17,842 nt of DNA from Methylobacterium sp. (GTDB lineage: Bacteria > Pseudomonadota > Alphaproteobacteria > Rhizobiales > Beijerinckiaceae): positions 1-17,842 of the forward strand of contig JADCCH010000365.1 in NCBI GenBank assembly GCA_020252865.1. The letters run 5' to 3'. Both the position numbers and the translations under genes were made by a program. Positions 608 to 15,466 of this stretch are shown here, one piece after another (the stretch's first letter is position 1; the number at the start of each line of letters is the position of its first letter). A model generated the notes under the pieces. That model searched no databases and had not been told where the DNA came from. It was given only the letters and a program-made list of their open reading frames with translations.

Positions 608-1291
608 TCACTTCATCTGAGGGGCCGGCCCGCGCGGGGCCTGCGCGATATAGCCCAGACCTCGGACAGTCTCGATCACATCCACGCCGAGCTTCTTGCG
701 CAGGCGACCGACAAACACTTCGATCGTGTTGGAATCACGATCGAAATCCTGATCATAGAGATGCTCGACCAATTCGGTCCGCGACACCACGCGGCCCTGG
801 TGGTGCATCAGATAGGCCAGCAAACGATATTCATGGCTCGTCAGCCGGATCGGGTTGCCGTCCACCACCACGCGGCTCGAGCGCGTATCGAGAATGACCG
901 GGCCACAGGTCAATTCGCTCGTGGCATGGCCGGCCGCGCGCCGCAGCAGCGCCCGCAGGCGCGCAAGCACTTCTTCCATGTGGAAGGGCTTTGTCACATA
1001 GTCGTCGGCGCCCGCATCGAAGCCTTGCACCTTCTCGCTCCAGCGGTCGCGCGCCGTGAGGATCAGAACGGGCATCTTGCGGCCTTCGCGTCGCCATTTC
1101 TCCAGCACGCGAATGCCATCCATCTTCGGCAGGCCCATATCGAGGATCACCCCATCATAAGGCTCCGTATCGCCGAGGAAATGCCCCTCCTCGCCATCGA
1201 AGGCGCTATCGACCGCATAGCCCGCATGTTCCAGCGCCGAGGTCAACTGGCGGTTGATGTCGCGATCATCCTCGATCACAAGCAGACGCAT
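608..1291 (-). CDS. OmpR/PhoP-family response regulator (FeuP-like)
   Basis: A 227-residue two-component transcription factor. The receiver domain (about 1-118) shows the acidic pair D8-D9, the phosphorylation site D51 in VILDMGLPKMDG, T79 and the conserved K101 in VTKPF. A winged-helix DNA-binding domain follows (about 127-217), with RLTSHEYRLLAYLMHH and the C-terminal NTIEVFVGRLRKKLG signature. The frame is open 24 codons further upstream, but family alignment puts the start at MRLLVIEDD, and GGGGAG stands 9 nt upstream of that ATG. The sequence resembles rhizobial FeuP and PhoP-type regulators from memory, so FeuP is a family-level suggestion only. The gene follows the lysis gene on the same strand after 124 bp, and the sensor kinase follows 4 nt downstream. 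Whether it controls the neighbouring GTA is unknown. Confidence 0.93.
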   Translation of the reverse strand: MRLLVIEDDRDINRQLTSALEHAGYAVDSAFDGEEGHFLGDTEPYDGVILDMGLPKMDGIRVLEKWRREGRKMPVLILTARDRWSEKVQGFDAGADDYVTKPFHMEEVLARLRALLRRAAGHATSELTCGPVILDTRSSRVVVDGNPIRLTSHEYRLLAYLMHHQGRVVSRTELVEHLYDQDFDRDSNTIEVFVGRLRKKLGVDVIETVRGLGYIAQAPRGPAPQMK

Positions 1292-1395
1292 TCGAACGAA
1301 CTCCCCAAGGCGGCGCGGGCGGGCAGGCTTTTCCTGCTCCGCTTGTTCTCCTGTTTCATACACCGCTTTGAGGGAATTTCGAGGCCAACCGATTC

Positions 1396-1415: not shown

Positions 1416-1622
1416 TCAGATCAGGCGCTTGGTCGCGACGACACGAAACACCGTCGAGGCCACGAAGCTGCCCGCCGCCACGAGTTCGAGCAACCGATCC
1501 GTGAGGAGACCCTGATCCAGACCCATGGTCTGGAAGCCCATGAGCGAAAGGGCGATCGAGCCGAAACCAACGACATTGGCCCAGACCGTGCGACTCTGCA
1601 GAAGCGTCTTGGTATCGAACAT
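1416..1622 (-). CDS. Internal-start holin-like protein inside the endolysin frame
   Basis: This is a nested 68-residue product, in the same frame as the endolysin, starting at an ATG that is codon 186 of the long frame. It begins MFDTKTLLQSRTVWAN. It has hydrophobic helices at about residues 12-32 and 40-63, and a basic tail VVATKRLI, the layout of small two-helix holins that let endolysin cross the inner membrane. A consensus ribosome binding site (AAAGGAG, 1629-1635) sits exactly 6 nt upstream, which strongly suggests independent initiation. The simplest history is an ordinary two-gene lysin-holin cassette that lost the stop codon between the genes, leaving the second start working. Holin function is inferred from topology and context. 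Confidence 0.65.
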   Translation of the reverse strand: MFDTKTLLQSRTVWANVVGFGSIALSLMGFQTMGLDQGLLTDRLLELVAAGSFVASTVFRVVATKRLI

Positions 1623-2177
1623 GGTCTTCTCCTTTGGGTTGGCCGTCCCGGCGGGCCGGCTGGACAGAGTGAGGCGGAGGCTTTCGCGCTCGATTTCGGC
1701 CACGCGCCTCATCCAGCCCCGGCCGAAGATCGGAAAGGTATGCAATTGCCGGAGAAAGCGCAGGCGCGCGGCGCAAAGCGCCTCGATCAAGGATCGGGCC
1801 TCGGCGGCACGGATGGCATCGAGGGTTTGCGGCCCCATCCGACCATCAACCTCAACGGCCACCAGACCCTGAAGGGTGCGGATGACCCGCTGTGGCCCGG
1901 AATTCACGGCGTAATCAAAAGCCGCCAGATCGATCCCGGCAGGCAGTTCATCGCCAGCCACGGCGTTCCAGTATCGAACCCGGTAAATTGACGTGGCCTC
2001 CTCTCGCGATAACGCGCGAATGTCGGCGATGGTCACGGGCTGCCCGCGCCATGCGCCTAGCGTAGCCTGCGTGATCCCCATCATGGTGGCGCCACCGGGG
2101 TCGGATGGATGGTCGGAAAAACCACCTTCATGTCGAAGAACGAGCGCAAGCGCCCGCTCGAAGTTGGCGGTAGCCAT
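1416..2177 (-). CDS. GH108-type endolysin fused in frame to a holin-like domain
   Basis: A 253-residue lysis protein. The N-terminal part (about 5-90) is a glycoside hydrolase family 108 lysozyme, with the catalytic glutamate E17 in VLRHEGGFSDHP and the DPGGATMMGIT signature. A predicted peptidoglycan-binding domain follows (about 95-175), with FDYAVNSGP and VDGRMGPQTLDAI. It should cleave the glycan backbone of peptidoglycan to release particles. There is no stop codon after this module: the frame continues through residues 176-185 into a 68-residue segment with two hydrophobic helices that resembles small phage holins and is normally a separate gene. GGAG lies 6 nt before the ATG at 2177. 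The gene follows the tail tip gene by 23 bp, so it is probably the end of the GTA transcript. RcGTA itself keeps its lysis genes elsewhere. Endolysin identity is firm; whether the full fusion is made is open. Confidence 0.9.
   Translation of the reverse strand: MATANFERALALVLRHEGGFSDHPSDPGGATMMGITQATLGAWRGQPVTIADIRALSREEATSIYRVRYWNAVAGDELPAGIDLAAFDYAVNSGPQRVIRTLQGLVAVEVDGRMGPQTLDAIRAAEARSLIEALCAARLRFLRQLHTFPIFGRGWMRRVAEIERESLRLTLSSRPAGTANPKEKTMFDTKTLLQSRTVWANVVGFGSIALSLMGFQTMGLDQGLLTDRLLELVAAGSFVASTVFRVVATKRLI
1629..1635 (-). promoter_or_regulatory. Internal Shine-Dalgarno site for the holin-like product
   Basis: On the minus strand AAAGGAG lies 6 nt before an in-frame ATG (1622) within the long lysis ORF. 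It is as strong as any ribosome binding site in the cluster. Its position exactly at the boundary between the peptidoglycan-binding domain and the two-helix domain argues that it is functional. Confidence 0.65.
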
Positions 2178-2200: not shown

Positions 2201-5200
2201 TCAGTGCACGGGGAGCGTCATCACCAGCGGATCGCCGGCGCCAATGCGGGCAGAAAGCTGGACAATGCTGACGTCCAGACTTTCCCGAGGCGCGCCGAAA
2301 TCGGCCGTTTCCTCGGCGGTCCCGTAGAAATATTCCGGCGTCACAACCGTGACATTGCGCTTCACTGTTGTGCCGTCTCGGATCTGGATCCGGTATTCCT
2401 CGCGCTCCTCGCCAAGGGGAACCTCGTAAAGTTCCCAGTTGTCGCCGCCAAACCGAGTGCGACGGATGAAGGTCAGGCGGATGCCACCCGCCACACGTCG
2501 CGCCCTGGCATGGACCGGCGAGAGCGGACGATACGTCTTGCCGGCGATTGCGTGAACGGTCCGGGCCGTGGCGGAATCGCCGATGTCTCTCCCGGCCGGG
2601 ATGATCGCGAGTTCGACACTCTGCCCGACATGCTCGGCTCCAAGGCCGAGATCAACCACGGCATCGTCCAGGACGATCGCCTGCGCGCCCGGCGCGAGTG
2701 TTCGGGTGGCCGCCGTCTCCGAAAGACCCACCCCGCGCAACAGACCCGAGAGCCTGTATCGCCGGTCGGCGACAAGTGTCGCCTGCCTGAACAGGACGAT
2801 CTCGATCACGCCATCCGGCCCCACCAGCGCCAACGCGTTGTTGCCCGCGAGCACGGCGGCCTCGTCCACGCTTGCAAGGGCACCCGAAACGAGCAGGATC
2901 TCGCAGCTTGAGGCGTGATCCCACCGCCAGAGCGGCCCGGGCGCAAGCGCGGTCATCAGAGTGCCGAAGCGGGCCGCTGCCACGGCCTCCCCCAGAACGG
3001 TTCCGCCCTGATCCGTCCGGGTCAATGCATAGGGCCCGCGCCAGGGCTCCGCGCGCATGGCCAGATGCAGCGGACTGGCACTCTCGGAGCGCAGGATGGG
3101 CAATTCGAGGAGCCGAGCATAGGGCGCACCGGGCAGCGCCGGGGTCACAGGCAGCTCGGTCACATCATCATCGATCGGCGCAAAACCCATGGTTTCCGGA
3201 TCATGCGATAAAGCCTCGCAGATCCGTTCGCGCTGGTCGGAGATGCGGGTGAGGCGCACCAGCCTGCTCCCCGCCTCGGTCTCGATCGCAACAAGATCAC
3301 CCGCCTCGATGGCACGGGCACTGGGCGGCAAGGCAAACCGAAAAACCTCCCGCCCGGCCCAGGCCTCGGCCAGCCGCTGCTCGGCGAGGCGACGCGCGCG
3401 CCCCTTGGGCAGGATCATCGCGACTTCCTCGCTGACCTCCCTTTGGGCGGCGCTGCCGTCGCGACGCGCCTCGACCATCGTCTTGCGGAAATCCCGATCC
3501 GGATCGACGAAGCCCAGCCGGAAGCTGCGGGGCAGGTCGCGCTCTTCCAGCCGCGCGATTTCGATTTCCGCGCCATTCCGACCCGTCGGTGCCACGAGAT
3601 CATCCCGCGCGATCAGCGCCACCGGAAAGGCAGCACGCGGCTTGACCGAGAGTTCCGCGCCATCGCCCGAAGCAATGAGGCCAAAGCTGTCCAGCAAAGG
3701 CTCCAGCACGGCCCGCGCCGTCATGGGGCGATCGATGACAAATCCTTCGATTGCCTCGCCGATCGCAGCAACCGATCCCTGATCCGCCGCGTGGTCGGCG
3801 ATCACCGTGGCAATCAATTCGGGAAGCGGCGCAATCTCGAGCCGGCCGTTGAGCCAATGACCGCGCGCGAAGTTCGCCCCATCCGCCCATTGGTCGCGCA
3901 TGGCCGGAAACGCCGGAAACGGACGTGCGTCATAGGCCCAGGGGGCGATGAAATCCGGCTCCACCATCGGCCCGCCATAGACGGGCGAGGCCGGGTTATG
4001 CGCGGCAATATGTCCGGGGCTTGCCGGATCGAACCGATCGAGCATCGCCTCCAGCAGCCGGCGCTGGATCATGTCGTCGCGGTGACCTCGGGAAAAATAG
4101 GGCAACCCGTTCTCGACGGATTTCGGGTCGGGAAAGATGTTCGGCTGATTGCTCCCCTTATCGACCGCGCCACAGCCGATTTCAGCCAGCAGGATGGGCT
4201 TCGAACGCGCCTGCCAACCCGTGTTGGACGTGATCTCCACCCCGCCAACGCGCTCGCGATGCGTGTTCGACCACCAGCCAACAAGATCCTTCGGCCGGTA
4301 AATCCACGGCTTGCCGTAAGCGCCGTCGGAGATGGGCGTCCGGATCTGATTCGCGCGCGCACCGGCATTCGCGTAATACCAGTCGAACCCTTCGCCCGCG
4401 CCAATCCGGTCGACCAGATAGGCGGGGTCATGGGGTGTCTCCGCAAGGCTTGCATCGAAATGCGCCGGCTCTTCGCGCCAATCCGTCACCGGAGGGTAGA
4501 AATCGATGGCGATCGCACCGACTTCCGGATGGCTCCAGAAGGGATCGAGCGGAAAGCGCACCTCCTGCCCGCCGCCCAGCACATGCGCGCCATATTCGGT
4601 CCAGTCTGCGGCATAGGTGAGGCGCGTCGAAGGTCCGAGGATCGCACGCAATTCTCCGAGAAGCCCCGTGAGCGCCGCGACCATAGGGTAGTTTCCGCCG
4701 CCTGCAGAGAGATGCGTGAGGCCGACAAGCTCGGACGCGATGGAGAACGTATCGACCCCGCCCGCCGCCTTGGCGAGCATGGCGTGATGCAGCACCATCC
4801 GCCGGAAGCTCCATTCCGCCGGGCCGGCATAGAGCACGGTATCCCCGGAAAGCGCGAAATGGCTGGCCTGCGCCGATCCGATGAAGCTCGCAATCCCGGC
4901 ATTCACGCCGGTCGTCCCGGCAGGGCTTCCGGGCCTTCCCGGCGCGGGGTGGCAGGTGATGCGCCCCCGCCAGGGAAAGGCCGGCTGGTCTGCTGCATTG
5001 GAATAGGGATCAGGCCTGCCATTGCCAGGCGGAATATCCATCAGAATGAAGGGGTGGAGCGCCACCTTCAGCCCGCGGGCTTTCAGATCGCGGATCGCCT
5101 GGATGATCGAAAGATCCGAAGGCGTGCCTCCGTAATTGGGCCGCCCTTCCGATGTGGAAACCGCTTGCGCTGTCTCGCGCGTCAACCCGCAGACCTGCCA

Positions 5201-6121
5201 GGTCTGGCCGGTGGTGATCTTGCCCTTCTTCTCCACGCGGGGCGTGATCGTGCAGTTGCCCACGCGCAGATCGTCCCCGAACCACGCGCAGATCAGCGTC
5301 GCACGTTCGAGATTGGGGCAGAGCCCCTGCAGATCGTCGATGGATTGCTCCCAATCCGTGCCGCGCGTCCATTGCGAGCGGTTCAGCGTGCGCGAGGTGC
5401 CATAGCCGAAATCCTCGCGCACCTCGTCCGTAGCATAACCGAATTCGGTCGAGCCGGGGAAGAGGTTCACCGCCTTCAGCCGATCCGGCAAACCGGGCAT
5501 GGGCCGCACGATCTCGAACGAGAACTGCGGCAGGCGATTGCCGTAATCCGCCAGTGGAAAGCGTTCGAACACGATATAGGCGAGCCCACGGAACGCGGGC
5601 ACATGCCCCGTTCCCTGCTTCGCGACAATCAGCGGGTCGGCGGGCTGGTCGGCCTCGCCGCGATAGAAACGATAGGTGATCGCCGACAGATCCACCGCCT
5701 TCCCGTCGGCCCAGATACGCCGCACGAAGGCAACCGGCCCCTCGCAAAGACCGATCGCGACATTTGCCGAATAGACATAGCGGATGCTTTTCTGCCGGGC
5801 GCCCATGGCGGACTTGCCACCGATGCCCCCGCTTTTTTCGACGACCTGCTGCTCCTCGAATTCCGTGGCCCAGATCACCTGCCCGCCGAGGCGGACGCGA
5901 CCATAGATGCGCGGGATCGGCGCGCCCTCGCTTGCGGAAATCCCGTCGAGATCGGTCAGGCGCGGGCCTTGCTGCACACGTCGCGCGCCCTGCCCCAGGA
6001 AGGCGCGATCGATCAGCCCGCCCGCAAGCGCACCGGCAGCCTTGCCGAATGCCGCGCCGAAACTGCCTCCGAGGCTCTGCCCCAAGGTCGAGCCCAGCAA
6101 TTCGAATGCGATGGTCGCCAT
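2201..6121 (-). CDS. GTA tail tip / host-specificity protein with TIM-barrel domain (g15-like)
   Basis: A 1306-residue baseplate megaprotein equivalent to RcGTA g15. The N-terminus is glycine/alanine-rich and hydrophobic, typical of tail tip proteins. The middle (roughly 430-730) carries the GTA TIM-barrel glycoside-hydrolase-like domain: YAADWTEYG near residue 507 and LLAEIGCGAVDKGSNQPN near 645 contain the two acidic residues expected in such barrels. The following region (about 750-1050) matches the phage tail protein domain, and the C-terminus has the fibronectin-like character of the rcc01698 C-terminal domain. It should sit at the tail tip and contact or open the recipient envelope. ATG at 6121 overlaps the preceding stop as TGATG, so translation is coupled; a TTG one codon upstream is possible but unlikely. 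Length agrees with GTA homologues and no frame break is seen. Confidence 0.95.
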   Translation of the reverse strand: MATIAFELLGSTLGQSLGGSFGAAFGKAAGALAGGLIDRAFLGQGARRVQQGPRLTDLDGISASEGAPIPRIYGRVRLGGQVIWATEFEEQQVVEKSGGIGGKSAMGARQKSIRYVYSANVAIGLCEGPVAFVRRIWADGKAVDLSAITYRFYRGEADQPADPLIVAKQGTGHVPAFRGLAYIVFERFPLADYGNRLPQFSFEIVRPMPGLPDRLKAVNLFPGSTEFGYATDEVREDFGYGTSRTLNRSQWTRGTDWEQSIDDLQGLCPNLERATLICAWFGDDLRVGNCTITPRVEKKGKITTGQTWQVCGLTRETAQAVSTSEGRPNYGGTPSDLSIIQAIRDLKARGLKVALHPFILMDIPPGNGRPDPYSNAADQPAFPWRGRITCHPAPGRPGSPAGTTGVNAGIASFIGSAQASHFALSGDTVLYAGPAEWSFRRMVLHHAMLAKAAGGVDTFSIASELVGLTHLSAGGGNYPMVAALTGLLGELRAILGPSTRLTYAADWTEYGAHVLGGGQEVRFPLDPFWSHPEVGAIAIDFYPPVTDWREEPAHFDASLAETPHDPAYLVDRIGAGEGFDWYYANAGARANQIRTPISDGAYGKPWIYRPKDLVGWWSNTHRERVGGVEITSNTGWQARSKPILLAEIGCGAVDKGSNQPNIFPDPKSVENGLPYFSRGHRDDMIQRRLLEAMLDRFDPASPGHIAAHNPASPVYGGPMVEPDFIAPWAYDARPFPAFPAMRDQWADGANFARGHWLNGRLEIAPLPELIATVIADHAADQGSVAAIGEAIEGFVIDRPMTARAVLEPLLDSFGLIASGDGAELSVKPRAAFPVALIARDDLVAPTGRNGAEIEIARLEERDLPRSFRLGFVDPDRDFRKTMVEARRDGSAAQREVSEEVAMILPKGRARRLAEQRLAEAWAGREVFRFALPPSARAIEAGDLVAIETEAGSRLVRLTRISDQRERICEALSHDPETMGFAPIDDDVTELPVTPALPGAPYARLLELPILRSESASPLHLAMRAEPWRGPYALTRTDQGGTVLGEAVAAARFGTLMTALAPGPLWRWDHASSCEILLVSGALASVDEAAVLAGNNALALVGPDGVIEIVLFRQATLVADRRYRLSGLLRGVGLSETAATRTLAPGAQAIVLDDAVVDLGLGAEHVGQSVELAIIPAGRDIGDSATARTVHAIAGKTYRPLSPVHARARRVAGGIRLTFIRRTRFGGDNWELYEVPLGEEREEYRIQIRDGTTVKRNVTVVTPEYFYGTAEETADFGAPRESLDVSIVQLSARIGAGDPLVMTLPVH

Positions 6122-6591
6122 CAACCCCTCCCGGCCGGAAAGTCAAAGAGACCGGCGAGCTTCCGCCGCCAGATCGGAACAAGCGCAACTTCGGCGATCG
6201 AAGCCCCGTCATGCGCATGCACGAAGGTTTCGGGGCCGGTCGCGATGCCACAATGCTTCGCCGGCAGATGCGCGCGCCAACGGAAGATCAGCACGGTGCC
6301 GGGGCGGATTTCCGCATCCATCGGGCGTGGCAGAAGATGCCGGAAGGCCCCAACGATGAGCTGATCGGGCGCACCCAGTTCCGCCCAGGCGGGCGAGTAG
6401 GCCGGAATGGCTTCGGGCTCCTCGCCCACGGCCTCACGCCACACTCCGCGCAGAAAACCGAGGCAATCCGCGCCGACGCCTTTCAACGAGGCCTGATGCT
6501 GGTAGGGCGTTCCGATCCATTCCCGCGCGAGGCGCACGATTTCCTCTCGGCGCGCGGCTTCCTCGCGCTCGGCCTTGCTCATTCGCGGCAT
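6121..6591 (-). CDS. NlpC/P60 family tail peptidase (g14-like)
   Basis: A 156-residue cell-wall peptidase of the tail tip, equivalent to RcGTA g14. The NlpC/P60 fold shows the catalytic cysteine in GVGADCLGFLRG and the catalytic histidine in PAKHCGIATG, with a further polar histidine in TFVHAHDG. It would cleave peptide crosslinks in the recipient's peptidoglycan during DNA delivery. I chose ATG 6591 (MPRMSKAEREE) because GAGG stands 5 nt upstream, right after the preceding gene's stop (6599). The frame is open a further 22 codons upstream, but that part overlaps the DUF2163 gene. An alternative ATG lies three codons downstream (6582). The gene ends in an overlap with the tail tip gene. Confidence 0.93.
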   Translation of the reverse strand: MPRMSKAEREEAARREEIVRLAREWIGTPYQHQASLKGVGADCLGFLRGVWREAVGEEPEAIPAYSPAWAELGAPDQLIVGAFRHLLPRPMDAEIRPGTVLIFRWRAHLPAKHCGIATGPETFVHAHDGASIAEVALVPIWRRKLAGLFDFPAGRG

Positions 6592-6598
6592 GGAAACC

Positions 6599-7483
6599 TC
6601 ACAATTGCACGAGGGGACGACCGAGATGCCGCCCCTCGCCCGGCTGGGCATAGACAAAGGCGAATTCCGGCGAAGGAATCAGCGGAAATCCACGAAAATT
6701 CGGTGCATTGGCAAAACGGTCGCGGCAGGTGGCAAAGCGCTTGTCGCAGCCTGCGATCGCCACCACGGAATCGCCGGGGAGAAGATCAGCCGGCAAGCCC
6801 TCCCAGAGGATGATCGCCTCTCCCTCATGCATGCGGATCGGCCGCGAGAGCCCGGCATTCGCGCCGGTCATGACCATCAATCGCCCGCGCGCGAAAAGCC
6901 CTGCGGTCGGCGTGGCAAATTGCGGTGCGCTGATGCGATGCCGGCCATCGGTTGTCACCACATTGGTCACGATACGCCATGCGGGGTTGTTGAGATCCAC
7001 GCCACATTCCGCATCACCCAGTTCGGCCGAACAGGCCGAGCTGTAGAGACGTCCCTGTTCGAGGTCGAGCGCATGCAGAGCATTGCGCGTCTCGGCGATG
7101 AAGGCTCCATCCTTCCGGCGGATCTCGCCGATGGTCACGGCATCGATCAGGCAGTCGAGCGCGGGGGCGCTCCAGTCCACGAGCCAGCGGCGCAGTTCAG
7201 CGCCATCATAGCGTCCTGCCTCGATATCCTCGGCGGTCACGCGCGCGCTGGAGAGCGCGCCGGTGATCTCGCCATTCGCGGCGGCGAGGCCCGTCTCGCT
7301 CTCGACGGCGGATGCCTCGATGCCGCTTGCAGCCTCGAAGACCTGCATGCCGATGCTCAGCGTGCGGTCATGGTCGGTGAAGCCCAAAGCCACGCCATCC
7401 CTACGGGTCAGGAGCCAGCATTGGCAATGCGTCGTTACCCCGGAGGCGAGCGCCAGGGCGATGGTCGAGGGAAGCGATTTCAT
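6599..7483 (-). CDS. DUF2163 tail hub protein (g13-like)
   Basis: A 294-residue baseplate hub component equivalent to RcGTA g13. The N-terminal half has the family pattern with TRRDGVALGFTDHDRTL. The C-terminal half ends in GCDKRFATCRDRFANAPNFR followed by GFP, the hallmark of phage DUF2163 proteins. Four cysteines, C151, C160, C246 and C253, fall in the places where related phage hub proteins (such as lambda gpL) hold an iron-sulfur cluster, so a cluster is likely here by analogy. C20 and C22 near the N-terminus and C111 are additional. Its ATG follows the DUF2460 stop by 3 nt, with only a weak GAG as ribosome binding site, so translation is probably coupled. Confidence 0.95.
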   Translation of the reverse strand: MKSLPSTIALALASGVTTHCQCWLLTRRDGVALGFTDHDRTLSIGMQVFEAASGIEASAVESETGLAAANGEITGALSSARVTAEDIEAGRYDGAELRRWLVDWSAPALDCLIDAVTIGEIRRKDGAFIAETRNALHALDLEQGRLYSSACSAELGDAECGVDLNNPAWRIVTNVVTTDGRHRISAPQFATPTAGLFARGRLMVMTGANAGLSRPIRMHEGEAIILWEGLPADLLPGDSVVAIAGCDKRFATCRDRFANAPNFRGFPLIPSPEFAFVYAQPGEGRHLGRPLVQL

Positions 7484-7486
7484 GGC

Positions 7487-8128
7487 TCAAACCCGGATTT
7501 CGATGAGCGGAATATTGGGAATGGCCCCGGCCTCGAAGGCCGACAGATCGACCTCGAGAAAATCCGTATCGAAACGCACCGGCACATCGAAGACGAATCC
7601 CGCCGTCACGGAGGCCCCTGCAAGCGGGATATGCCCGGAGCGGAAGGTCACGATTCCGGTGGTCGCGTCGCAATCGAAATGCGTTCCTGCGACGCGCTCC
7701 GCGCCGTTCACCGCCACGCGGACGCTGCCCTCCACCGGTTTCGCGATCGGGCGCTCATAGGGCGAATACGTCGCGCCGTAGCGCTTGATGAGCGGGAACG
7801 CCGCCCGCGTCCCGTTTCCCGTGCCGAGCGGCTGGTCGTTCGGCAAGGGCGGTGCGTTCTTCGGCGCGGAGGTCCAGTCGAGTCGGTCGCGGAAGCGAAA
7901 GCCGTAAAGCCGCCCCCGCCGCTCCTCGAAGAACGCGACGATGGCCGAAAGCCCCTCGATGGAGCGCACGCCATAGCCTGCATCATATTTCCGGCGCGAG
8001 AGCGCCCAGCGCGCATTGCGTTCTTCGCGGCCGCTTGCCAGCGTCACGATTTCCGTGCGCCGCTCCGGCCCCCCGCGCGCTCCAAGCGCTACCTCGACGG
8101 GGAAGCGCACTTCATGAAATCCGGCCAT
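7487..8128 (-). CDS. DUF2460 distal tail protein (g12-like)
   Basis: A 213-residue distal tail protein equivalent to RcGTA g12. It opens with MAGFHEVRFPVEVALGARGG and has ERRTEIVTLASGREERNARW, both characteristic of DUF2460 (TIGR02217-type) proteins that ring the end of the tail tube and attach the hub. The frame continues 31 codons further upstream, but that extension overlaps the tape measure gene. ATG 8128 is preceded by GAGGAGAGGGCA, with AGGAG 6 nt away, which settles the start. It lies 10 nt after the tape measure stop. Confidence 0.94.
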   Translation of the reverse strand: MAGFHEVRFPVEVALGARGGPERRTEIVTLASGREERNARWALSRRKYDAGYGVRSIEGLSAIVAFFEERRGRLYGFRFRDRLDWTSAPKNAPPLPNDQPLGTGNGTRAAFPLIKRYGATYSPYERPIAKPVEGSVRVAVNGAERVAGTHFDCDATTGIVTFRSGHIPLAGASVTAGFVFDVPVRFDTDFLEVDLSAFEAGAIPNIPLIEIRV

Positions 8129-8138
8129 TGCCCTCTCC

Positions 8139-8720
8139 TCACAAAGAACGCTGTCCGCGCGCCACGGCGCGCGCGAGGCTCGCGCTGACCTGCGCCTCGG
8201 ATCGGCGGAAGCTCTCCGCATCCGGCGTGGAGATGTTCATCACGATGCGCACCGGCCCGTTCCCGCCTGCGCCTGTCGCCACGCCGAGCCTTCCATCCGG
8301 CCCGCGCGAGAGCGGCAGGATGGCCTCCGCGCCGCGCTCGCCGGCGATGCCGAGGCCGCGCCCCATGGGGAAGAAATGCGGGGTATTGATCACGCCGCCT
8401 TCTGCAAAGAAGGTCGCTGGCCCGCCGCCTCCACCCAGCCCTCCGAGCCCTCCGAGCCCGCTGAACAGGCTCGAGAACATCGAACCGAGGCTGTTCTCCA
8501 GCGGCTTGAACGCCGCCTTCAGTGCGATTTCCAGGAAGCGCTGGCCGATATTCTTGAGGATATCGTCGAAGCCCTTGCCCTGGGCGATGCCGCTGGCGAG
8601 AGCCCGCGAGAGCGAGCGGCCGAATTGCGACGTCACCGTATCGAGCGCGCGCATCTGGCGCGTCAGGCCGGTCACGGCCCCCGATACATCGAGGCCGATA
8701 TCGGTTTCCTCATCCATCAT
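8139..8720 (-). CDS. Short tail tape measure protein (g11-like)
   Basis: A 193-residue GTA tape measure protein, which sets tail length and occupies the tail lumen. The sequence has DIGLDVSGAVTGLTRQMRAL, the GFDDILKNIGQRFLEIALKA helix, a very glycine-rich linker encoded by a short tandem repeat (AGCCCTCCG on the plus strand, 8437-8454), and AEGGVINTPHFFPMGRGLGI followed by a GERGAEAILPL motif typical of the C-terminal part of phage tape measure proteins. It is far shorter than most siphophage tape measures, as expected for GTAs. ATG 8720 (MMDEETDIG) is preferred because GAGAGGA lies upstream; an in-frame ATG at 8738 would put that motif inside the gene. The gene overlaps the chaperone stop by 11 nt. 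Confidence 0.9.
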   Translation of the reverse strand: MMDEETDIGLDVSGAVTGLTRQMRALDTVTSQFGRSLSRALASGIAQGKGFDDILKNIGQRFLEIALKAAFKPLENSLGSMFSSLFSGLGGLGGLGGGGGPATFFAEGGVINTPHFFPMGRGLGIAGERGAEAILPLSRGPDGRLGVATGAGGNGPVRIVMNISTPDAESFRRSEAQVSASLARAVARGQRSL

Positions 8721-8898
8721 GGGCGTTGGTCCTCTCATCGGGGAAAAGGCGCATCAGCGCGTGGAAGGCCTCGCCATCGGGCGCTTCCGGAAGGCCGGTC
8801 TCACCACGCAGGCCGCGCAGGGCGGCGGCGAGTTCGGGCAAGGTCATCGACCAGAAAGCCTCGGGCGAAAGCCGCAGCAGGCCGAACCCGAGCGCCAT
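8710..8898 (-). CDS. Tail assembly chaperone, TAC_6-type (g10.1-like)
   Basis: A short tail assembly chaperone, 62 residues from the first ATG. The LGFGLLRLSPEAFWSMTLPE pattern followed by LAAALRG is that of the small phage chaperones (PF09550-like) located between the GTA g10 gene and the tape measure. The start is problematic. Family members usually begin with a short FPW-type motif, and here the codons just upstream of the ATG do encode AFPWQEA, so the real N-terminus probably lies upstream. Yet this frame has no ATG, GTG or TTG between the stop at 9061-9063 and ATG 8898. It is also in the -1 frame relative to the preceding chaperone. Either the ATG at 8898 (AGGA 4 nt upstream) is used, or the protein is made by frameshifting from the gene before. 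Confidence 0.75.
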   Translation of the reverse strand: MALGFGLLRLSPEAFWSMTLPELAAALRGLRGETGLPEAPDGEAFHALMRLFPDERTNAHDG

Positions 8899-8945
8899 TG
8901 CTTCCTGCCAGGGGAAGGCGCGCGGCCGGGCCGTTGCCTTGCCTG

Positions 8946-9296
8946 CTACGGCGCGGGAGGGCGCGAGGCGGCCTCCCCACCGAAAGAGATCGCGAAGAGA
9001 TCGGACAGTGCCGCTACCGCGCGCGGCAGATCCTCTGCGCCGATCCGGCTTGCAACCTCCTCATCGGCGAGCTTCGCGCCACCGCCGCGGATCGCCGCGC
9101 CAAGCAAGGCGACGAGATCGCGCGCCGCGATCCGCCCACCGGCGAAACGCTCGCCGAGCCCCTGGAGGTCGCCTGCGCCGAGAGCTGCCTCGATCTCCGC
9201 CAGTGCCTGAAGGCTGAGGCGGAGCGCAAAACGTTCCGCACCCAGGTTCAGGCTGACTTCGCCCCTGCGCCGGTTGGTCATGTGCTGGCTCGTCAT
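8946..9296 (-). CDS. GTA g10-type tail assembly chaperone (TAC_11)
   Basis: A 116-residue protein of the gene transfer agent g10 family. RRRGEVSLNLGAERFALRLS and LQALAEIEAALGAGDLQGL are typical. It is believed to chaperone the tape measure during tail tube assembly, as lambda gpG does, and is not expected in the finished particle. It starts 8 nt after the major tail protein stop, with GAGG upstream; a second ATG lies five codons in. It ends at TAG 8948-8946. The reading frame of the next chaperone is open in -1 across the last 110 or so bases of this gene. Confidence 0.9.
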   Translation of the reverse strand: MTSQHMTNRRRGEVSLNLGAERFALRLSLQALAEIEAALGAGDLQGLGERFAGGRIAARDLVALLGAAIRGGGAKLADEEVASRIGAEDLPRAVAALSDLFAISFGGEAASRPPAP

Positions 9297-9304
9297 GGCG
9301 GGCC

Positions 9305-9715
9305 TCAGAGCGCGGTGAAGGTGAGCGCGCCGGCGCTCTCCATCGCCATCTCGAAGGTCATCTCGGCCGCATGTTCGCCGCGATAATCGAGGCTGGTGAT
9401 CTGGAACGGCCCGGTGATCTCCCCGAAATCCGGCAGCACGATCTTCCAGTTGCGGATCGCGCCATCGAAGAAGACCTGCCTCACCAGTTCATCCGAGGCG
9501 CCATCCTTGAAGATGCCGGAACCGGAAATGGAGGCGCGGCGCACGCCCGCGCCGTCCAGCAATTCACGCCAGCGCCCGGTGGATTCCGAGTGGGTCACGT
9601 CCACCGTCTCGGCATTGAGCGAGAAGCGTCGCGTGCGCAGGCCCGCCACGGTCACGAAGGCGTTCATCGAATCCGCGAGCTTCAACAGAATGTCCTTGCC
9701 GCGTTGGGCTGCCAT
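9305..9715 (-). CDS. Major tail tube protein (g9-like, TP901-1 type)
   Basis: A 136-residue tail tube subunit. It begins MAAQRGKDILLKLAD and contains AETVDVTHSESTGRWRELLD, GVRRASISGSGIFKD and the C-terminal FEMAMESAGALTFTAL, all typical of the TP901-1-family major tail proteins found as g9 in GTA clusters. It polymerises into the tail tube around the tape measure. AAGGAG stands 8 nt before the ATG, one of the stronger ribosome binding sites of the tail module, consistent with a subunit needed in many copies. It lies 18 nt after the DUF3168 gene. Confidence 0.94.
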   Translation of the reverse strand: MAAQRGKDILLKLADSMNAFVTVAGLRTRRFSLNAETVDVTHSESTGRWRELLDGAGVRRASISGSGIFKDGASDELVRQVFFDGAIRNWKIVLPDFGEITGPFQITSLDYRGEHAAEMTFEMAMESAGALTFTAL

Positions 9716-9733
9716 GAGGCTCTCCTTCGGATG

Positions 9734-10144
9734 TCAGAGGATGTGGAGGAAGGCGCGCAGACGCGCCGTGGCACGGGTCAGCGCCCGGGCTTCATCGTGC
9801 CGAACGAGCGTCTCCCGGATCAGGATCAGCGAGAGCCGGTGCTCGGCCACCGCGAGGGGCGAAGCGCCAATGGCCACCTGCGCCGCATGCAGGATCGCCA
9901 GCGCCTCGGCCGAACCGCGCTCGCGCGTGACGGCAACGAGATCGAGATCGACAACCACAGCCTCGGCTTCGTTGGTGCCGTTCTCGCGAAGCTGGGAATC
10001 GCCCAGGATGAGGAAGGGTGGTTCGGCCCCCCGCGGCGGCGCATCATGCACCGCCGTGTCGATCAGCGCCGTCACGGCGCTGTTCGTCGTGAGGCGCGTC
10101 CGAACCGCCGCCTTCAACGCATGAACCGGATGGATCGCGCTCAT
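9734..10144 (-). CDS. DUF3168 tail terminator/completion protein (g8-like)
   Basis: A 136-residue protein of the DUF3168 family. It opens with MSAIHPVHALKAAVRTRLTT and has TAVHDAPPRGAEPPFLILGD, the family signature, then VVVDLDLVAVTRERGSAEAL. In phages this family forms the ring that ends tail tube growth and joins the tail to the head connector. The start ATG overlaps the preceding stop by 4 nt (ATGA), showing translational coupling to the head closure gene. Confidence 0.92.
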   Translation of the reverse strand: MSAIHPVHALKAAVRTRLTTNSAVTALIDTAVHDAPPRGAEPPFLILGDSQLRENGTNEAEAVVVDLDLVAVTRERGSAEALAILHAAQVAIGASPLAVAEHRLSLILIRETLVRHDEARALTRATARLRAFLHIL

Positions 10145-10476
10145 GGCGTCACCTCCCGCACGAGGCAGACGATTCTTCGGCGGTTGCCGTCAGGGTCGAA
10201 AACCGCCGTGATTTCCAAAATCCGAGTGCCGAAGCGAAAACGGTAGCGCGCGTCGATCCCCTCGCGGAAGGGCAGCGTGACGCGCCCGCTGCGCGGACCG
10301 ATGGCCTGACCACCCTCTTCCGTTTCGCGGCCGCCGGTCATTTCGATCGCCCCCCACAGGGTCGCGACATTCTGCCAGCCCAGGGTCGCTCCGCCGAGCG
10401 GGGTCGCGGTTTCCGCGAGTTGCTCGAGGGTCAGGCGATTGCGGCGGCTGGCGATGGAAACACGCGCCTTGCTCAT
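10141..10476 (-). CDS. Phage head closure protein (g7-like)
   Basis: A 111-residue head closure protein of the SPP1 gp16-like type. The sequence has MSKARVSIASRRNRLTLEQL, WQNVATLWGAIEMTGGRET and a C-terminal beta-rich stretch RYRFRFGTRILEITAVFDPD, typical of the family. It seals the portal-connector channel after packaging. It overlaps the connector gene upstream and the tail terminator gene downstream by 4 nt each (ATGA at both junctions), so these three genes form one coupled translation unit. Confidence 0.92.
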   Translation of the reverse strand: MSKARVSIASRRNRLTLEQLAETATPLGGATLGWQNVATLWGAIEMTGGRETEEGGQAIGPRSGRVTLPFREGIDARYRFRFGTRILEITAVFDPDGNRRRIVCLVREVTP

Positions 10477-11051
10477 GCCGAAAATCCTCCGAGGCGCAGG
10501 CTGCGGAACGGCTTCAGCATGGTCCGCACCGGGCCGGGCAATCCACGTTCAACGATGGCGGCATCGCCCCTGTTCTCGAACCAGAAGGCCACGAGCTGGC
10601 GCACCGCGAGGCGCAAAGGCTCGGGCACCTGGGCTGCGAATTCGCCAAAGCCGAGCCGGACATCGATCTCGATGCCGCCACGTCCGCGGCCCGGCGCCGG
10701 GCGAAGAAGCGGGCGGATGGAGTCGTGCTCCTGGCCCTTCACGATTTCGAATTCGGCCGCCGCGAGTGCCTGCGGCGCGCCAGACGCCGGAAACACCCGC
10801 CCGCCGGCTACCGAGATCACGCGGCCGATCCGCACGGGGATGGTTTCCGTCGGGGGCCATTGGTCGCCGATGATCCGCCAGTTCTGCGCGAGCAGGACAA
10901 GGCCAATCTCGCTTTCCACCGTCAGGCGGGCCGCGATGATCAATGCCTGGATGAGGCTATCCTCGTCGCTGCCCTCCACACGAAGCCAGCCCTTGGCCTC
11001 GACGAGACTGACGGGCTCGAGCTGCGGCCCATCCACCAGAAGCGGGATCAT
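10473..11051 (-). CDS. Head-tail connector, phiE125 gp8 family (g6-like)
   Basis: A 192-residue head-tail adaptor. It begins MIPLLVDGPQLEPVSLVEAK, continues GWLRVEGSDEDSLIQALIIA and has a C-terminal helical region LRLAVRQLVAFWFENRGDAA, the pattern of phiE125 gp8 / HK97 gp6-like connectors that dock under the portal. It should directly follow the capsid gene in an RcGTA-type order, but here it is separated from it by a plus-strand protease gene. AAGG lies 9 nt before the ATG. The 86-bp region upstream is divergent with the protease gene; I see no convincing promoter there for this gene, so it may depend on readthrough across the protease locus. Confidence 0.92.
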   Translation of the reverse strand: MIPLLVDGPQLEPVSLVEAKGWLRVEGSDEDSLIQALIIAARLTVESEIGLVLLAQNWRIIGDQWPPTETIPVRIGRVISVAGGRVFPASGAPQALAAAEFEIVKGQEHDSIRPLLRPAPGRGRGGIEIDVRLGFGEFAAQVPEPLRLAVRQLVAFWFENRGDAAIVERGLPGPVRTMLKPFRSLRLGGFSA

Positions 11052-11137
11052 GGGTCAGTGCCTTTCTGTCGCAGAAGCACGCCGCGCCGGCCCATCGGCC
11101 TTGCGCGGCAGGAAGGCGCGGTGCAAAGGTCCGCGCT

Positions 11138-11959
11138 GTGGAACTTTTTCGAAAATCTGGCCGCTCGCTGCGGCTTGCCGCCCGGGCGGCCGGTGCCGCG
11201 AGCCTGGTGATCCCGGCCTTGCCCGCTTTCGCGCTGGGTGGTGCGCAGTCGCAACCTGCTCCGGGCTTGCAGCCGCATGTCGTCATGGTCCTCTCGCGCG
11301 AAGTCCTCTCGCGCGAAGGCACCCGGCATGGCGCCTGCACGGGAACCGTGATCGGCCGCGATGTGGTCCTGACCGCCGCGCATTGCGTGGCTGGCAAGAA
11401 GCAGGTGGTCGTGGCCTATGCCGAGAATGGCAGCCATGTGCTTCAGCGCGTCATCAGCCGCGCGATCCATCCCGGCTTTTCGGGCCGCGCGCGCGTTTCG
11501 CTCGATCTCGCGCTGATCCGGCTCGAATCCCCTCTGCCCGCGCGCTTCGCGCCGCTGCCATTTGACCGCGGCGAGGTGGAGCATCGCGTCGGCGCGACCC
11601 ATCTCATCGCGGGCTATGGCATGCAGCGCGAGAGCGACGAGGCCAGCGCGGGCACGCTTCGCAGCGCCACGGTAAGCGTTCTGCCCCGACTCTTCCCGCG
11701 TTACCTGCGCATCGGCACGTCACCGAGCGCAGATCTGTCCGATTTCGCCATCTGCACCGGTGATTCCGGCGGCCCGGTTCTCGCTGCCGGGTTCGGCGGC
11801 AAGGTCATCGTCGGTGTGGTCTATGGCCGCGAGAGCTTCGGCGATGCCCGCTCCTGCGGCACGATCGGCCAGGCGGTGCGCCTGGCGCCGCAGGCGGGAT
11901 GGATCGAGCAGAATCTGGCGCGCTGGTCGGGCGAGGCTCGCCCCCGCCCGACCCGCTGA
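11138..11959 (+). CDS. Secreted chymotrypsin-fold (S1) serine protease inserted in the GTA cluster
   Basis: A 273-residue secreted serine endopeptidase, the only plus-strand gene in the cluster. The N-terminus has a basic region and a hydrophobic stretch ending in ALPAFALG (about residues 10-34), a likely signal peptide, so it should act outside the cytoplasm. The catalytic triad is visible: H82 in LTAAHC, D123 in SLDLALIRL and S210 in CTGDSGGPV. The residue six before the serine, which sets specificity in S1 proteases, is A204 and not the aspartate of trypsin, so cleavage after Lys/Arg is not expected. The start is GTG at 11138, with AAAGG 8 nt upstream. A perfect 15-bp tandem duplication encodes VLSRE twice (residues 51-60). 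It converges on the capsid gene (8 bp between stops) and diverges from the connector gene. The protease call is firm; any role in GTA biology is inference. Confidence 0.93.
   Translation: MELFRKSGRSLRLAARAAGAASLVIPALPAFALGGAQSQPAPGLQPHVVMVLSREVLSREGTRHGACTGTVIGRDVVLTAAHCVAGKKQVVVAYAENGSHVLQRVISRAIHPGFSGRARVSLDLALIRLESPLPARFAPLPFDRGEVEHRVGATHLIAGYGMQRESDEASAGTLRSATVSVLPRLFPRYLRIGTSPSADLSDFAICTGDSGGPVLAAGFGGKVIVGVVYGRESFGDARSCGTIGQAVRLAPQAGWIEQNLARWSGEARPRPTR
11288..11317 (+). repeat. Perfect 15-bp tandem duplication inside the protease gene
   Basis: The 15-base unit GTCCTCTCGCGCGAA occurs twice, directly abutting and with no mismatch. It keeps the frame and duplicates VLSRE at protein residues 51-60, between the start of the mature domain and the catalytic histidine region. 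The lack of divergence suggests a recent slippage event. Confidence 0.85.
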
Positions 11960-11967
11960 CCGCGCCG

Positions 11968-13200
11968 TTACACCGAGAAACGCAGCAGCTTGATCGCGTC
12001 GAAATCCTGCACGCCGCCGCCCACGCGCTTCGTTGTGTAGAAGATCACGAAGGGCTTGGTGGAGAACGGGTCGCGCATCGTGCGGATGCCGATGCGATCG
12101 ACCACCGCATAGCCGCGCTGGAAATCACCGAAGGCGACCGAGAGGCTGTTTGCGGCAATATCCGGCATGTCCTCGGCTTCCACCACGGGGAAATTCATCA
12201 GGGTGGAGCGCGCGCCAGCGACGCTCGGCGGCTGCCAGATGTAGTTTCCGGTCGAATCCTTCACTTTCCGGATCACGCCGAGGGTCTTTCGGTTCAGAAC
12301 GAAGCTGCCATTCTGCCGATAGACCGCCTTCAGGGCATGCGCGAGATCGAACAGGCTGTCCGAGGGGTTGGTCGTTGCGAAGGCGCCGGCCGCGCCTGTC
12401 ACCACGAAGCCGAGATTGTTCCAGCTCCAGCTGGCCTGCGCCAATACCGGGTAGGTCAGGAAGCCTTTCGGCTTGTTGGTGCCATTTCCGTTCACGAAGG
12501 CGGTCGTCTCGGCCGCCGCGAAGGCCCGGACGATCTCGTTCGTGATCCATTCCTGGATATCGACCGCGGTGTCATCGAGCATGGTCTGGGTCGCGGCGGG
12601 CTGGGTGAAGAGTTCGCCCGTGGGAAAATCGAGTGCCACGAAAGCCGAGGCCTGCACGGCATTGCCCGGCGCGGCATCCCCCGTCCAGCCCGATTGCGCG
12701 CCGGTCGGCGTCACCGCCTTGCGCAGGCTCGAGCCGGAGATCGACTGCACGCCGGCGATTGAGCGGATCGGCGACCAACCGGCAATGCGCGCCAGCACGC
12801 TTTCCTCGGTCAGCGGCGGCAGGAGATAGCCGCCATCCGGCGCCGTCATGTTGGCGGCCTTCATTTCCAGCCGATGGAGCCCCTGGGTCTCGCCGGAGCG
12901 CATATAGCCATCGAACGCGCTCTTGTGTTCGAGAGCCACGGGCGACACGCCCTCGTCCCCGAATCCCAGCGCCGGGCGGCGGCCCTTGGTCTCGAGGTTG
13001 CGGATGCGATCCATGCACTGGTCGATCGCGCGGTCCATGCGGGAGAACTTCTCGGCCTGAAGCGGATCTGCCGCCGCGCGGCGGTCGTCGTTCTCGCTGC
13101 GATATTCGGCGACAAGGCGGTTCAGATTGTCGAACTCCTCGGCCTGCGAAAGCGCTTTCGTTTCCGGAGCTCCGGCTTCCGGGTGACGCAGATGGGTCAT
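11968..13200 (-). CDS. HK97-type major capsid protein (g5-like)
   Basis: A 410-residue major capsid protein. The first 110 or so residues are charged and helical (EEFDNLNRLVAEYRSENDDR), the scaffold-like delta domain removed during maturation. The HK97 fold follows, with APDGGYLLPPLTEESVLARI, GDAAPGNAVQASAFVALDFP (the E-loop area), GNGTNKPKGFL, TYPVLA and the C-terminal FVIFYTTKRVGGGVQDFDAI. By analogy with other GTA capsids, cleavage would fall near K114 in RLEMKAANMT; that is inference. AGGA lies 6 nt before the ATG. The gene follows the prohead protease by 15 bp. Its stop is 8 bp from the converging protease gene and I see no terminator hairpin between them. Confidence 0.96.
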   Translation of the reverse strand: MTHLRHPEAGAPETKALSQAEEFDNLNRLVAEYRSENDDRRAAADPLQAEKFSRMDRAIDQCMDRIRNLETKGRRPALGFGDEGVSPVALEHKSAFDGYMRSGETQGLHRLEMKAANMTAPDGGYLLPPLTEESVLARIAGWSPIRSIAGVQSISGSSLRKAVTPTGAQSGWTGDAAPGNAVQASAFVALDFPTGELFTQPAATQTMLDDTAVDIQEWITNEIVRAFAAAETTAFVNGNGTNKPKGFLTYPVLAQASWSWNNLGFVVTGAAGAFATTNPSDSLFDLAHALKAVYRQNGSFVLNRKTLGVIRKVKDSTGNYIWQPPSVAGARSTLMNFPVVEAEDMPDIAANSLSVAFGDFQRGYAVVDRIGIRTMRDPFSTKPFVIFYTTKRVGGGVQDFDAIKLLRFSV

Positions 13201-13215
13201 GGTGATCCTCGTGGT

Positions 13216-13806
13216 TCAGAATTGCGCCATCCGGCGCCGGGAAGAGGCAGAGGCATGTGCGCCGCCGCCCGATGGGCCCCTGCCATCGCCACGCGGAGCG
13301 ATGCGCGCCTGCGGCAACAGGGGGAAGGTGACGATGGAAATCTCCCACAGATCGAGCTTCTCGAGCCGCCTCAGGCCAGTCTCCGGGTCGTGCTTCTCGC
13401 TCTCGGCCTTGAAGCCGATGGAGAGCCCGTCGACGCTCCCGCGGGTGATGAGGCGGTGCAACTCGCGCGCCTTGGGAAGTTCAAGGTCGAGCCGGCCCAG
13501 CACCCGCAGGCCACGCTGATCCTCGGCGATCTCCAGCCATTCCCCGACCGGATTTCGGGGGTCATGCTGCCAGAGCTGCTTCACGCCGATGGCCGTGCGC
13601 TGCGCCAGGCTCGCCCGGAAGGCACCGGGCATCACCACGTCGCGCCCGAGATCGGCCACACCGAACAGCGAGGCATAGCCGTCGAAATAGCCCTCCGCAT
13701 CAATGCGCGGGGCGGCACCCGCGCCCCCGCTCTTCTGAACGGGCGCGCGGGTGCTTCTTCCGGCCGGCAGGGAGGCGGACCGGCCGGAATGCAAGGCGTT
13801 CGGCAT
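13216..13806 (-). CDS. HK97-family prohead protease (g4-like)
   Basis: A 196-residue maturation protease that digests the capsid delta domain inside the prohead. The family core begins at about residue 39 with GYFDGYASLFGVADLGRDVV and MPGAFRASL. The likely catalytic residues are H81 in LWQHDPRNPVGEW, S129 in GLSIGF and E155 in LDLWEISIVTFPLLP. The first 35 residues and the last 20 are low-complexity and basic, as in related proteins that process themselves. AAAGG lies 7 nt before the ATG. It stands directly before the capsid gene, as expected. Confidence 0.94.
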   Translation of the reverse strand: MPNALHSGRSASLPAGRSTRAPVQKSGGAGAAPRIDAEGYFDGYASLFGVADLGRDVVMPGAFRASLAQRTAIGVKQLWQHDPRNPVGEWLEIAEDQRGLRVLGRLDLELPKARELHRLITRGSVDGLSIGFKAESEKHDPETGLRRLEKLDLWEISIVTFPLLPQARIAPRGDGRGPSGGGAHASASSRRRMAQF

Positions 13807-13834
13807 GGGCTATTCCTTTGGTCTGTTCCCTGGT

Positions 13835-14050
13835 TCAGGGCTTTCTCGCAGCATCGTCGTCGAGCCGCGTGATGCGCAGCTTTCGCTGCGGCTCGGATTT
13901 CGTCTCGAGCCACGGCTCCGGGCGCTCCAGCCGCTCAATGAGCTCGAAAAAGCGCCTGAAGAGCCGCGCCGGCTCCAAACCGTTCGCAAGAGAAGGGTTT
14001 CCCGACCGTCGGGCCCGTCGGGACTGGGTCGGTCGTGTCAATCGCCACAT
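13835..14050 (-). CDS. Possible small basic protein of unknown function
   Basis: A 71-residue reading frame that fills the gap between the g3.5-like gene and the prohead protease. It starts at ATG 14050, 6 nt after the preceding stop, with GGGGGA 9 nt upstream. The first 27 residues are arginine-rich and less gene-like. The remainder (ARLFRRFFELIERLERPEP, KLRITRLDDDAARKP) uses GC-ending codons as its neighbours do and looks helical and amphipathic. I do not recognise a family, and RcGTA has no gene here that I recall. Position, spacing and direction favour a real gene, but the evidence is thin. Confidence 0.45.
   Translation of the reverse strand: MWRLTRPTQSRRARRSGNPSLANGLEPARLFRRFFELIERLERPEPWLETKSEPQRKLRITRLDDDAARKP
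14001..14022. repeat. GC-rich palindromic cluster
   Basis: CCCGACCGTCGGG is a near-perfect palindrome (6-bp arms around one base), followed at once by CCCGTCGGG, which repeats its right arm. On the minus strand it could fold into a strong GC hairpin inside the 5' part of the small ORF. No T-run follows, so a terminator is not supported. It might slow or regulate translation between the g3.5-like gene and the prohead protease. Confidence 0.4.
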
Positions 14051-14056
14051 GGCTGT

Positions 14057-14254
14057 TTATCCCCCGGTTGATCCGGTTCCCTGGCGTCGGTTGAACCGCG
14101 CGATCTCGCGCACGAAGGCATCGAAACGCCGGTTGGCCGCCGCGTTTTCCTTGAGCAGGTGAATGCAGGCACCCGAGCTCGCCCCCGCCCAGAGGAACAG
14201 GACGAGATGCGCGAGATCGCCGCGTGCGAGGATGCTTTCCGTCACTGCACTCAT
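14057..14254 (-). CDS. Small membrane-type protein between portal and protease (g3.5-like)
   Basis: A 65-residue protein whose ATG overlaps the portal stop by 4 nt (ATGA). Residues about 13-34 (DLAHLVLFLWAGASSGACIH) form one moderately hydrophobic helix, followed by a basic, polar tail (RFDAFVREIARFNRRQG). Its position corresponds to the small g3.5 gene of RcGTA, for which no firm function is known to me. The coupled start and conserved position support a real gene; I do not assign a function. Confidence 0.75.
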   Translation of the reverse strand: MSAVTESILARGDLAHLVLFLWAGASSGACIHLLKENAAANRRFDAFVREIARFNRRQGTGSTGG

Positions 14255-15444: not shown

Positions 15445-15466
15445 GAAAGCCTCCAGGGCGAGAAAG

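Follow-up and report, generated by a model that had tools for sequence, protein, structure and literature searches.

A conserved endolysin::holin-like fusion gene with a putative internal start closes a GTA cluster in Methylobacterium and its relatives

The window analysed here is a stretch of 17,842 nucleotides corresponding to contig C296 of a Methylobacterium genome in 392 contigs (78% complete). On its minus strand, a single open frame (1416-2177) leads from a GH108 endolysin into a two-helix, holin-like hairpin. The same frame is kept across genera, as is a start codon at the boundary between both parts. The gene lies at the end of a GTA cluster and, in one related genus, its two parts are found as separate genes. 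We propose that it is an old, selected GTA lysis gene that probably gives two functional products, the whole fusion and the hairpin alone. Initiation in vivo at position 1622, which would produce the free hairpin, is very likely. That the endolysin is delivered while tethered to the hairpin is a more tentative proposal, with somewhat less than even confidence.

The frame is open for 253 codons from ATG 2177-2175, preceded by a GGAG at 2184-2187. It encodes a GH108 domain (residues 11-94, positions 1896-2147; PF05838, 102.9 bits for a cut-off of 21.2), a PG_binding_3 domain (residues 100-158, 1704-1880; PF09374, 33.4 bits for a cut-off of 24.6), a linker (about residues 173-185, 1623-1661) and a final segment of 68 residues (1416-1622). 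At the junction, the minus strand reads AACCCAAAGGAGAAGACCATGTTC, with AAAGGAG at 1635-1629, a 6-nt spacer at 1628-1623 and an ATG at 1622-1620 that encodes Met186 of the fusion. A sequence-only reading of this DNA had claimed both that the GH108 frame continues without a stop into a 68-residue segment and that AAAGGAG, 6 nt and ATG mark the boundary; the open codons, the Pfam matches and the coordinates confirm it on both points. The residues E17-G18-G19 of the GH108 domain, the first of which we take to be the catalytic glutamate, are invariant in 45/45 aligned fusions. By profile and motif, the product is thus a GH108 endolysin, for which muramidase activity is predicted. Solved structures 7dnp, 2is5 and 2ikb are related by sequence to this part. 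With the holin-associated N-acetylmuramidase family NF040573, the fused gene scores 73.7 bits, far under the curated cut-off of 240, and its lysin is a related GH108 enzyme outside that family. The AlphaFold2 model of the fusion has a confident GH108 domain up to about residue 170, followed by a disordered linker (pLDDT <50 at residues 176-190). In 47 loci, 8-37 residues, with abundant P, A, S and T, separate the end of the lysin profile from the internal start, and the linker varies in sequence as well as in length. GC by codon position did not tell coding from non-coding sequence in the linker. An assembly artefact of this genome bin is ruled out, since the same frame is also open in the named isolates Chelatococcus composti and Alsobacter metallidurans.

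Directly upstream of the lysis gene is GTA gene 15 (2201-6124, minus strand; Pfam matches GTA_TIM, Phage-tail_3 and Rcc01698_C). The rest of the structural cluster extends from 6121 to 17107 on the same strand. Profile matches identify terminase, portal, prohead protease, capsid, connector, head and tail completion proteins, tail tube, chaperones, DUF2460, baseplate hub and an NlpC/P60-like gene just below cut-off. The fused gene is therefore the last one of a GTA cluster, a context that the sequence-only reading did not remark. The ordered terminase, portal, protease, capsid, connector and tail genes, ending with gene 15, make the locus an RcGTA-type GTA by gene set, and packaging of random host DNA is predicted. 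The lysis gene is followed by a response regulator gene (608-1363, minus strand; PF00072 and PF00486), which served as a synteny marker. It is found downstream, on the same strand, in 44/48 fused and 17/18 split loci, which indicates one inherited chromosomal place. The C-terminus of gene 15 was seen upstream in 28/48 fused loci with flanks of about 1.5 kb; with flanks of 3 kb, named Microvirga loci had gene 15 in 3/3 fused and 4/5 split cases. A trypsin-like serine protease frame (11138-11959, plus strand; PF00089, 84.6 bits) lies on the opposite strand between the capsid and connector genes. In another genome of the window's genus (L317), no lysis gene was found, and the last 22 residues of the hairpin stand ahead of the same response regulator; the end of that GTA appears to be deleted.

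The distribution of the fusion was studied in 298 genomes of the window's GTDB family. The fused protein matched 138 of them, and 89 loci, mainly better-scoring, were fetched from these: 48 fused, 18 split, 6 with GH108 fused to another hairpin and 17 with neither this hairpin nor another fused one, the last group counting against our explanation. A census with a hairpin profile, independent of the choice of these loci, matched 77 genomes, 71 of them strongly (E up to 3.9e-23); the six weak ones (E 9e-11 to 7e-4) were inspected and kept apart from the strong ones. Among the 71 strong hairpins, 48 are in frame with GH108, 19 are split and 4, from genera g15 and g21, have no GH108 match within the 4.2-5 kb fetched, which again weighs against the proposal. 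The fused loci spread over 12 genera. We take groups g32, g19, g11 and g9 to be Microvirga, Chelatococcus, Alsobacter and Methylobacterium, respectively. Comparing the junction in related genomes for a stop codon, as the sequence-only reading had suggested, revealed a split form next to the fused one, confined to g32, which includes all 19 split loci and also four of the fused ones. In g32, 18 split hairpins adjoin a separate GH108 gene: for 17, the distance to its stop is -1 to +19 bases, whereas one (L054) overlaps it by 139 bases. A further split hairpin (L313, genome G250) neighbours a lysin gene that matches in two frames, reflecting either a frameshift or a sequencing error. Alignment A1 contains 45/48 fused loci, leaving out one with a longer tail (L008) and two incomplete ones (L057 and L089), and hairpin alignment A2 contains 26/66 hairpins. 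Start and Shine-Dalgarno counts exclude L089 (47 junctions), and the tree excludes L057 and L089.

Fused and split forms require two changes on a tree built from 87 lysin domains, which is unrooted and has weak support. The split loci form one g32 clade. Three fused g32 loci are nested inside it and perhaps re-fused, while the fourth (L040) is elsewhere. Recent loss of a stop codon with the old holin start kept, which the sequence-only reading had offered as an alternative, is rejected, the fusion being present in 12 genera and the split form in a single one whose rows lie among fused ones on this tree. Another alternative holds that these are two ordinary adjacent genes, whose joint frame is a neutral stop-loss accident and whose fusion protein has no role of its own. 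The parts can indeed be separate genes, as seen in g32, and the internal Shine-Dalgarno and ATG correspond to an ordinary gene start. The splitting in g32 also means that the fusion is dispensable there, which speaks against our proposal. Yet, the frame behaves very differently outside this genus. In g32 (21 rows), the spacing passed through all three frames, with 7 changes over 5.2 substitutions/site. In contrast, the frame is unbroken in 42/42 tree rows outside g32, with no change over 14.6 substitutions/site, where about 20 breaks would be expected at the g32 rate (Poisson chance about 3e-9). This count leaves out L040, and the four genomes without adjacent GH108 are absent from the tree; since changes were counted by parsimony on a weak tree, the figure is rough, a strong indication and no exact test. 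In addition, fusions in two other families, f6 and f12, repeat the layout. The accidental joining of two genes is thus quite improbable, and selection for the fused frame is better supported.

The internal start shows the same constancy. All 47 full fused junctions keep an in-frame start codon. It occupies the aligned codon in 43/47 (41 ATG, 1 GTG, 1 TTG), and the homologous place in split hairpins (n=18) holds 17 ATG and 1 TTG. The other four junctions all belong to a single subclade within the window's genus; in each, an ATG with a Shine-Dalgarno of its own (-8.7, -8.5, -6.6 and -8.7) lies 3 to 21 codons upstream. In three of these, the upstream ATG precedes an inserted Met-Lys-Thr-Glu-like stretch. 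In L026, L035 and L053, Met-Lys-Thr-Glu-like repeats separate the internal start from the first helix, and Shine-Dalgarno and ATG lie upstream of the repeats. At the protein level, Met186 is found in 43/45 aligned sequences, whereas no other residue from 171 to 188 exceeds 21/45.

A Shine-Dalgarno-like core lies at most 18 bases from the start in 41/43 aligned starts, most often with a spacing of 6 (16 cases) or 9 bases (15 cases). Its codon phase is the same in 33/41, mostly as Lys-Glu-like codons, and another in 8/41, where it is encoded for instance as Gln-Arg-Ser or Thr-Gly-Glu. Over the 47 junctions, the anti-Shine-Dalgarno duplex energy averages -6.84, as compared to -5.15 after synonymous recoding (Wilcoxon 1e-7), a moderate excess, conspicuous in few individual loci because Lys-Glu codons favour AAGGAG. 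The 118 other in-frame ATGs of the same genes average -3.47 (Mann-Whitney 1.6e-11), the p-values being too small because the loci are related; averaging by genus first gives -6.08 for the junctions. At the starts of the 18 split hairpins, the average is -5.23. With the linker codons permuted, the 43 aligned starts would reach only -2.40 (sd 0.40; lowest of 500, -3.56) instead of their observed -7.16. The energy attains -5 in 37/43 of them; it is weaker in L027, L029, L031, L036, L041 and L046, which counts against our explanation. Two of these, L041 and L046, have no core at all, and L041 has a better ATG 12 codons upstream. The internal Shine-Dalgarno is stronger than that of the gene's own start in 27/42 pairs, including the window's (-8.7 versus -6.6 kcal/mol). 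A single copy of such a motif is no rarity: the window has two AAGGAG-N4-9-ATG for 0.64 expected, 30/200 shuffles had at least two, and the second one starts the tail tube protein frame 9305-9715 (ATG 9715-9713). For this reason, we place the weight on comparison across genomes.

The surroundings of the internal ATG are also predicted to be poorly structured. In 50-base windows, the mean MFE is -5.4 kcal/mol at this codon versus -16.6 elsewhere in the same frames (43 loci), with -10.6 at the gene's own start (42 loci). The trough is centred on the internal ATG, and part of it is due to GC, which drops there from 0.67 to 0.50. Hence, the start, the Shine-Dalgarno and the low structure around them are conserved even though the protein linker varies, which supports the dual-start design proposed by the sequence-only reading as far as the signals are concerned; holin activity and the two products keep the standing of predictions.

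These data bear on the view that only the fusion is made and matters, as a tail-anchored endolysin with the hairpin as its anchor and the internal Shine-Dalgarno and ATG as leftovers. Hydrophobic C-terminal tails are frequent among the GH108 loci fetched, so that tail anchoring looks usual for this lysin family. On the other hand, leftover signals would hardly account for a Shine-Dalgarno, a start codon and a low structure kept over 12 genera despite a scrambled linker, or for the other Shine-Dalgarno and ATG found upstream in the four loci without the aligned start. Moreover, the hairpin is a separate gene in g32, with its start at the homologous place, and elsewhere stands without GH108. We regard the anchor-only reading as unlikely and retain the dual-product one. 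Among GH108 lysins of named genomes and viral contigs (L133-L280), many have a hydrophobic C-terminal tail, often of one segment; such single-segment tails perhaps represent a simpler membrane tethering.

The hairpin is the part for which a holin function is proposed. In the AlphaFold2 model, the last 68 residues contain helices at 196-212 and 222-252, with pLDDT of about 51-70 over the block. The mean net charges of its N-end, loop and C-end are +0.96, -2.58 and +2.81 (26 sequences). This pattern fits both ends being in the cytoplasm; by the positive-inside rule, the GH108 domain of the fusion would then be cytoplasmic too. No Pfam family matched the 26 hairpins at cut-off, the best being Phage_holin_1 in 1/26 (E 0.0047), and the window's hairpin had no match in PHROGs. 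The two-helix shape put forward by the sequence-only reading is thus reproduced by the model, whereas its holin character finds no match to a holin family at cut-off. As a small protein with two putative membrane helices and presumably cytoplasmic ends, the hairpin agrees with a class-II-like holin by predicted shape, its helices being modelled at the above pLDDT, and it may form a timed membrane lesion.

Put together, these features suggest the following scheme. Translation from 2177 would give a membrane-tethered endolysin, made of a cytoplasmic GH108 domain, a flexible linker and the two-helix hairpin, with the enzyme held at the inner membrane on the side away from the wall. Translation from 1622, with its stronger and unstructured ribosome-binding site, would give the 68-residue hairpin alone, a class-II-like holin. 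Free hairpins would probably assemble a membrane lesion, which the fusion could join through its identical hairpin. The muramidase would thereby be placed at the lesion and stay attached, and the tethered enzymes could reach the wall through it. As long as the enzyme is not cut off the fusion, no free endolysin would be made by this gene. Phage lysis is usually described with two separate proteins, a membrane-opening holin and an enzyme that passes through; the fused gene makes a clear prediction of the route by which wall cutters get to the wall, and also suggests that lysis was retained and remodelled in domesticated phage particles.

Several known systems share parts of this design. The S genes of phages lambda and 21 are dual-start holins, with two products from one frame via two starts, and the phage 21 holin has about 68 residues and two membrane helices, both ends being inside. 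In lambda S and 21 S, only a few codons separate the starts, and the longer product acts as an antiholin. The logic is alike in the window, but its gene is no dual-start holin of the lambda type: the starts are 185 codons apart, and the long product includes a complete endolysin of 185 residues. By analogy, the long product could be an inhibitor or timer of the short holin, the enzyme being delivered only after the hairpins mix. Two products with a common membrane part and a different cytoplasmic N-end are indeed the logic of dual-start holins. However, the extension is an enzyme domain with an invariant E17-G-G and no short charged tail, and we regard a timer role as very improbable. In Ms6 lysA and Lys170, an in-frame internal start within the endolysin gene gives a second, C-terminal product, which is a smaller lysin or wall-binding part, whereas the nested product of the window would be a membrane holin-like protein. 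Finally, like RcGTA, the window has a GTA structural set ending in gene 15; in Rhodobacter capsulatus, the GTA holin and endolysin are separate genes away from the cluster, while here one fused lysis gene closes it. Lysin genes with an internal start and holins with two starts are known kinds; natural endolysins are not known to carry a nested holin start that is conserved between genera.

In the order (397 genomes), 39 genomes matched the hairpin profile; 6 of these belong to the window's family and 5 to family f12. All but the 11 weakest of the 41 matches were fetched. In 5/5 f12 loci, this type of hairpin is joined in frame to another lysin, with a boundary Shine-Dalgarno (-5.6 to -8.5) and ATG and with gene 15 upstream. 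One of these lysins (L105) matches Glyco_hydro_19 (29.1 bits, cut-off 25.5) and PG_binding_1 (38.6) in Pfam; the other four were assigned to the GH19 type by eye, from similar sequence. In the other relatives of the order that were inspected, the hairpin is separate from any lysin, which counts against our explanation. An example is family f20, where the hairpin is found directly after gene 15. Its loci L097-L103, L106, L108 and L110 are ten hairpin homologues with no GH108 gene alongside; the end of gene 15 is in the fetched stretch for all but L100. At class level (289 genomes), hairpin matches outside the window's family numbered only 4 and were weak.

Conversely, GH108 was found with different hairpins; the sequence-only reading had not remarked that the layout returns with other lysins and hairpins. 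One of them, of the GYKTYIVA type, was first met in Devosia, Pelagibacterium and other records, where 11 named or viral loci have 10 ATG and 1 GTG at the start. Its census in the 397 genomes of the order matched 25, of which 20 belong to family f6, taken as Devosiaceae because some of its junctions equal those of the named Devosia and Pelagibacterium records. The 19 strong f6 matches, from 5 genera, are all fused to GH108. The twentieth (G660) is partial and unfused, an observation unfavourable to our explanation, and no GH108 was seen within the stretch fetched from the 5 matched genomes that lie outside f6. The start is at the aligned codon in 18/19 f6 fusions and two codons further, as ATG, in the last one. 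The Shine-Dalgarno energy averages -7.14 (n=18), versus -3.20 for 70 control ATGs (Mann-Whitney 4e-7), and the motif is encoded as Gly-Asp, Trp-Ser, Arg-Arg or Gly-Val depending on the species. The RNA-structure trough is present as well, and gene 15 is near 12/19 of these fusions in the fetched stretch. A third hairpin form accompanies GH108 in five loci of genus g28, with Shine-Dalgarno and ATG (-5.3 to -8.7), and a fourth in one g17 locus (-7.4). A similar named locus (L156) has a GTG instead of an ATG, with a Shine-Dalgarno of -8.9.

Since f12 has another lysin and f6 another hairpin, at least two origins of the lysin-hairpin fusion are likely. The layouts of f6 and f12 could also stem from an exchange of parts within an older fusion. 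A self-delivering lysis protein may have arisen in GTA lysis loci of the Hyphomicrobiales on at least two occasions, and perhaps on more with unrelated parts. In such a case, every endolysin molecule from this gene would be tethered to a holin hairpin, a nested start would supply the free holin that builds a lesion shared by the tethered enzymes, and wall digestion would be confined to the lesion. We put this generalization forward as a conjecture with somewhat less than an even chance of holding.

A phage origin of the present gene was considered and rejected: the fused protein had a match in 653 phage records, but only 3 of these covered 80% of its length, and the one of the three that is among the 40 matches listed has 30.5% identity. 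The hairpin alone gave one weak match in phage records at E up to 1, and none of the 203 plasmid records matching the fused protein covered 80% of it. An Acinetobacter phage and a Devosia plasmid were inspected, and nothing was drawn from them. Among the 80 viral-contig loci listed, this hairpin is fused in one (L202) and split in one (L201), and two (L247 and L278) carry the Devosia-type fusion. All four have gene 15 nearby and hence look like GTA loci. Another viral contig (L211) has a weak, unfused match to the hairpin profile (15.8 bits). In phage PfAn1, an annotated holin precedes the endolysin.
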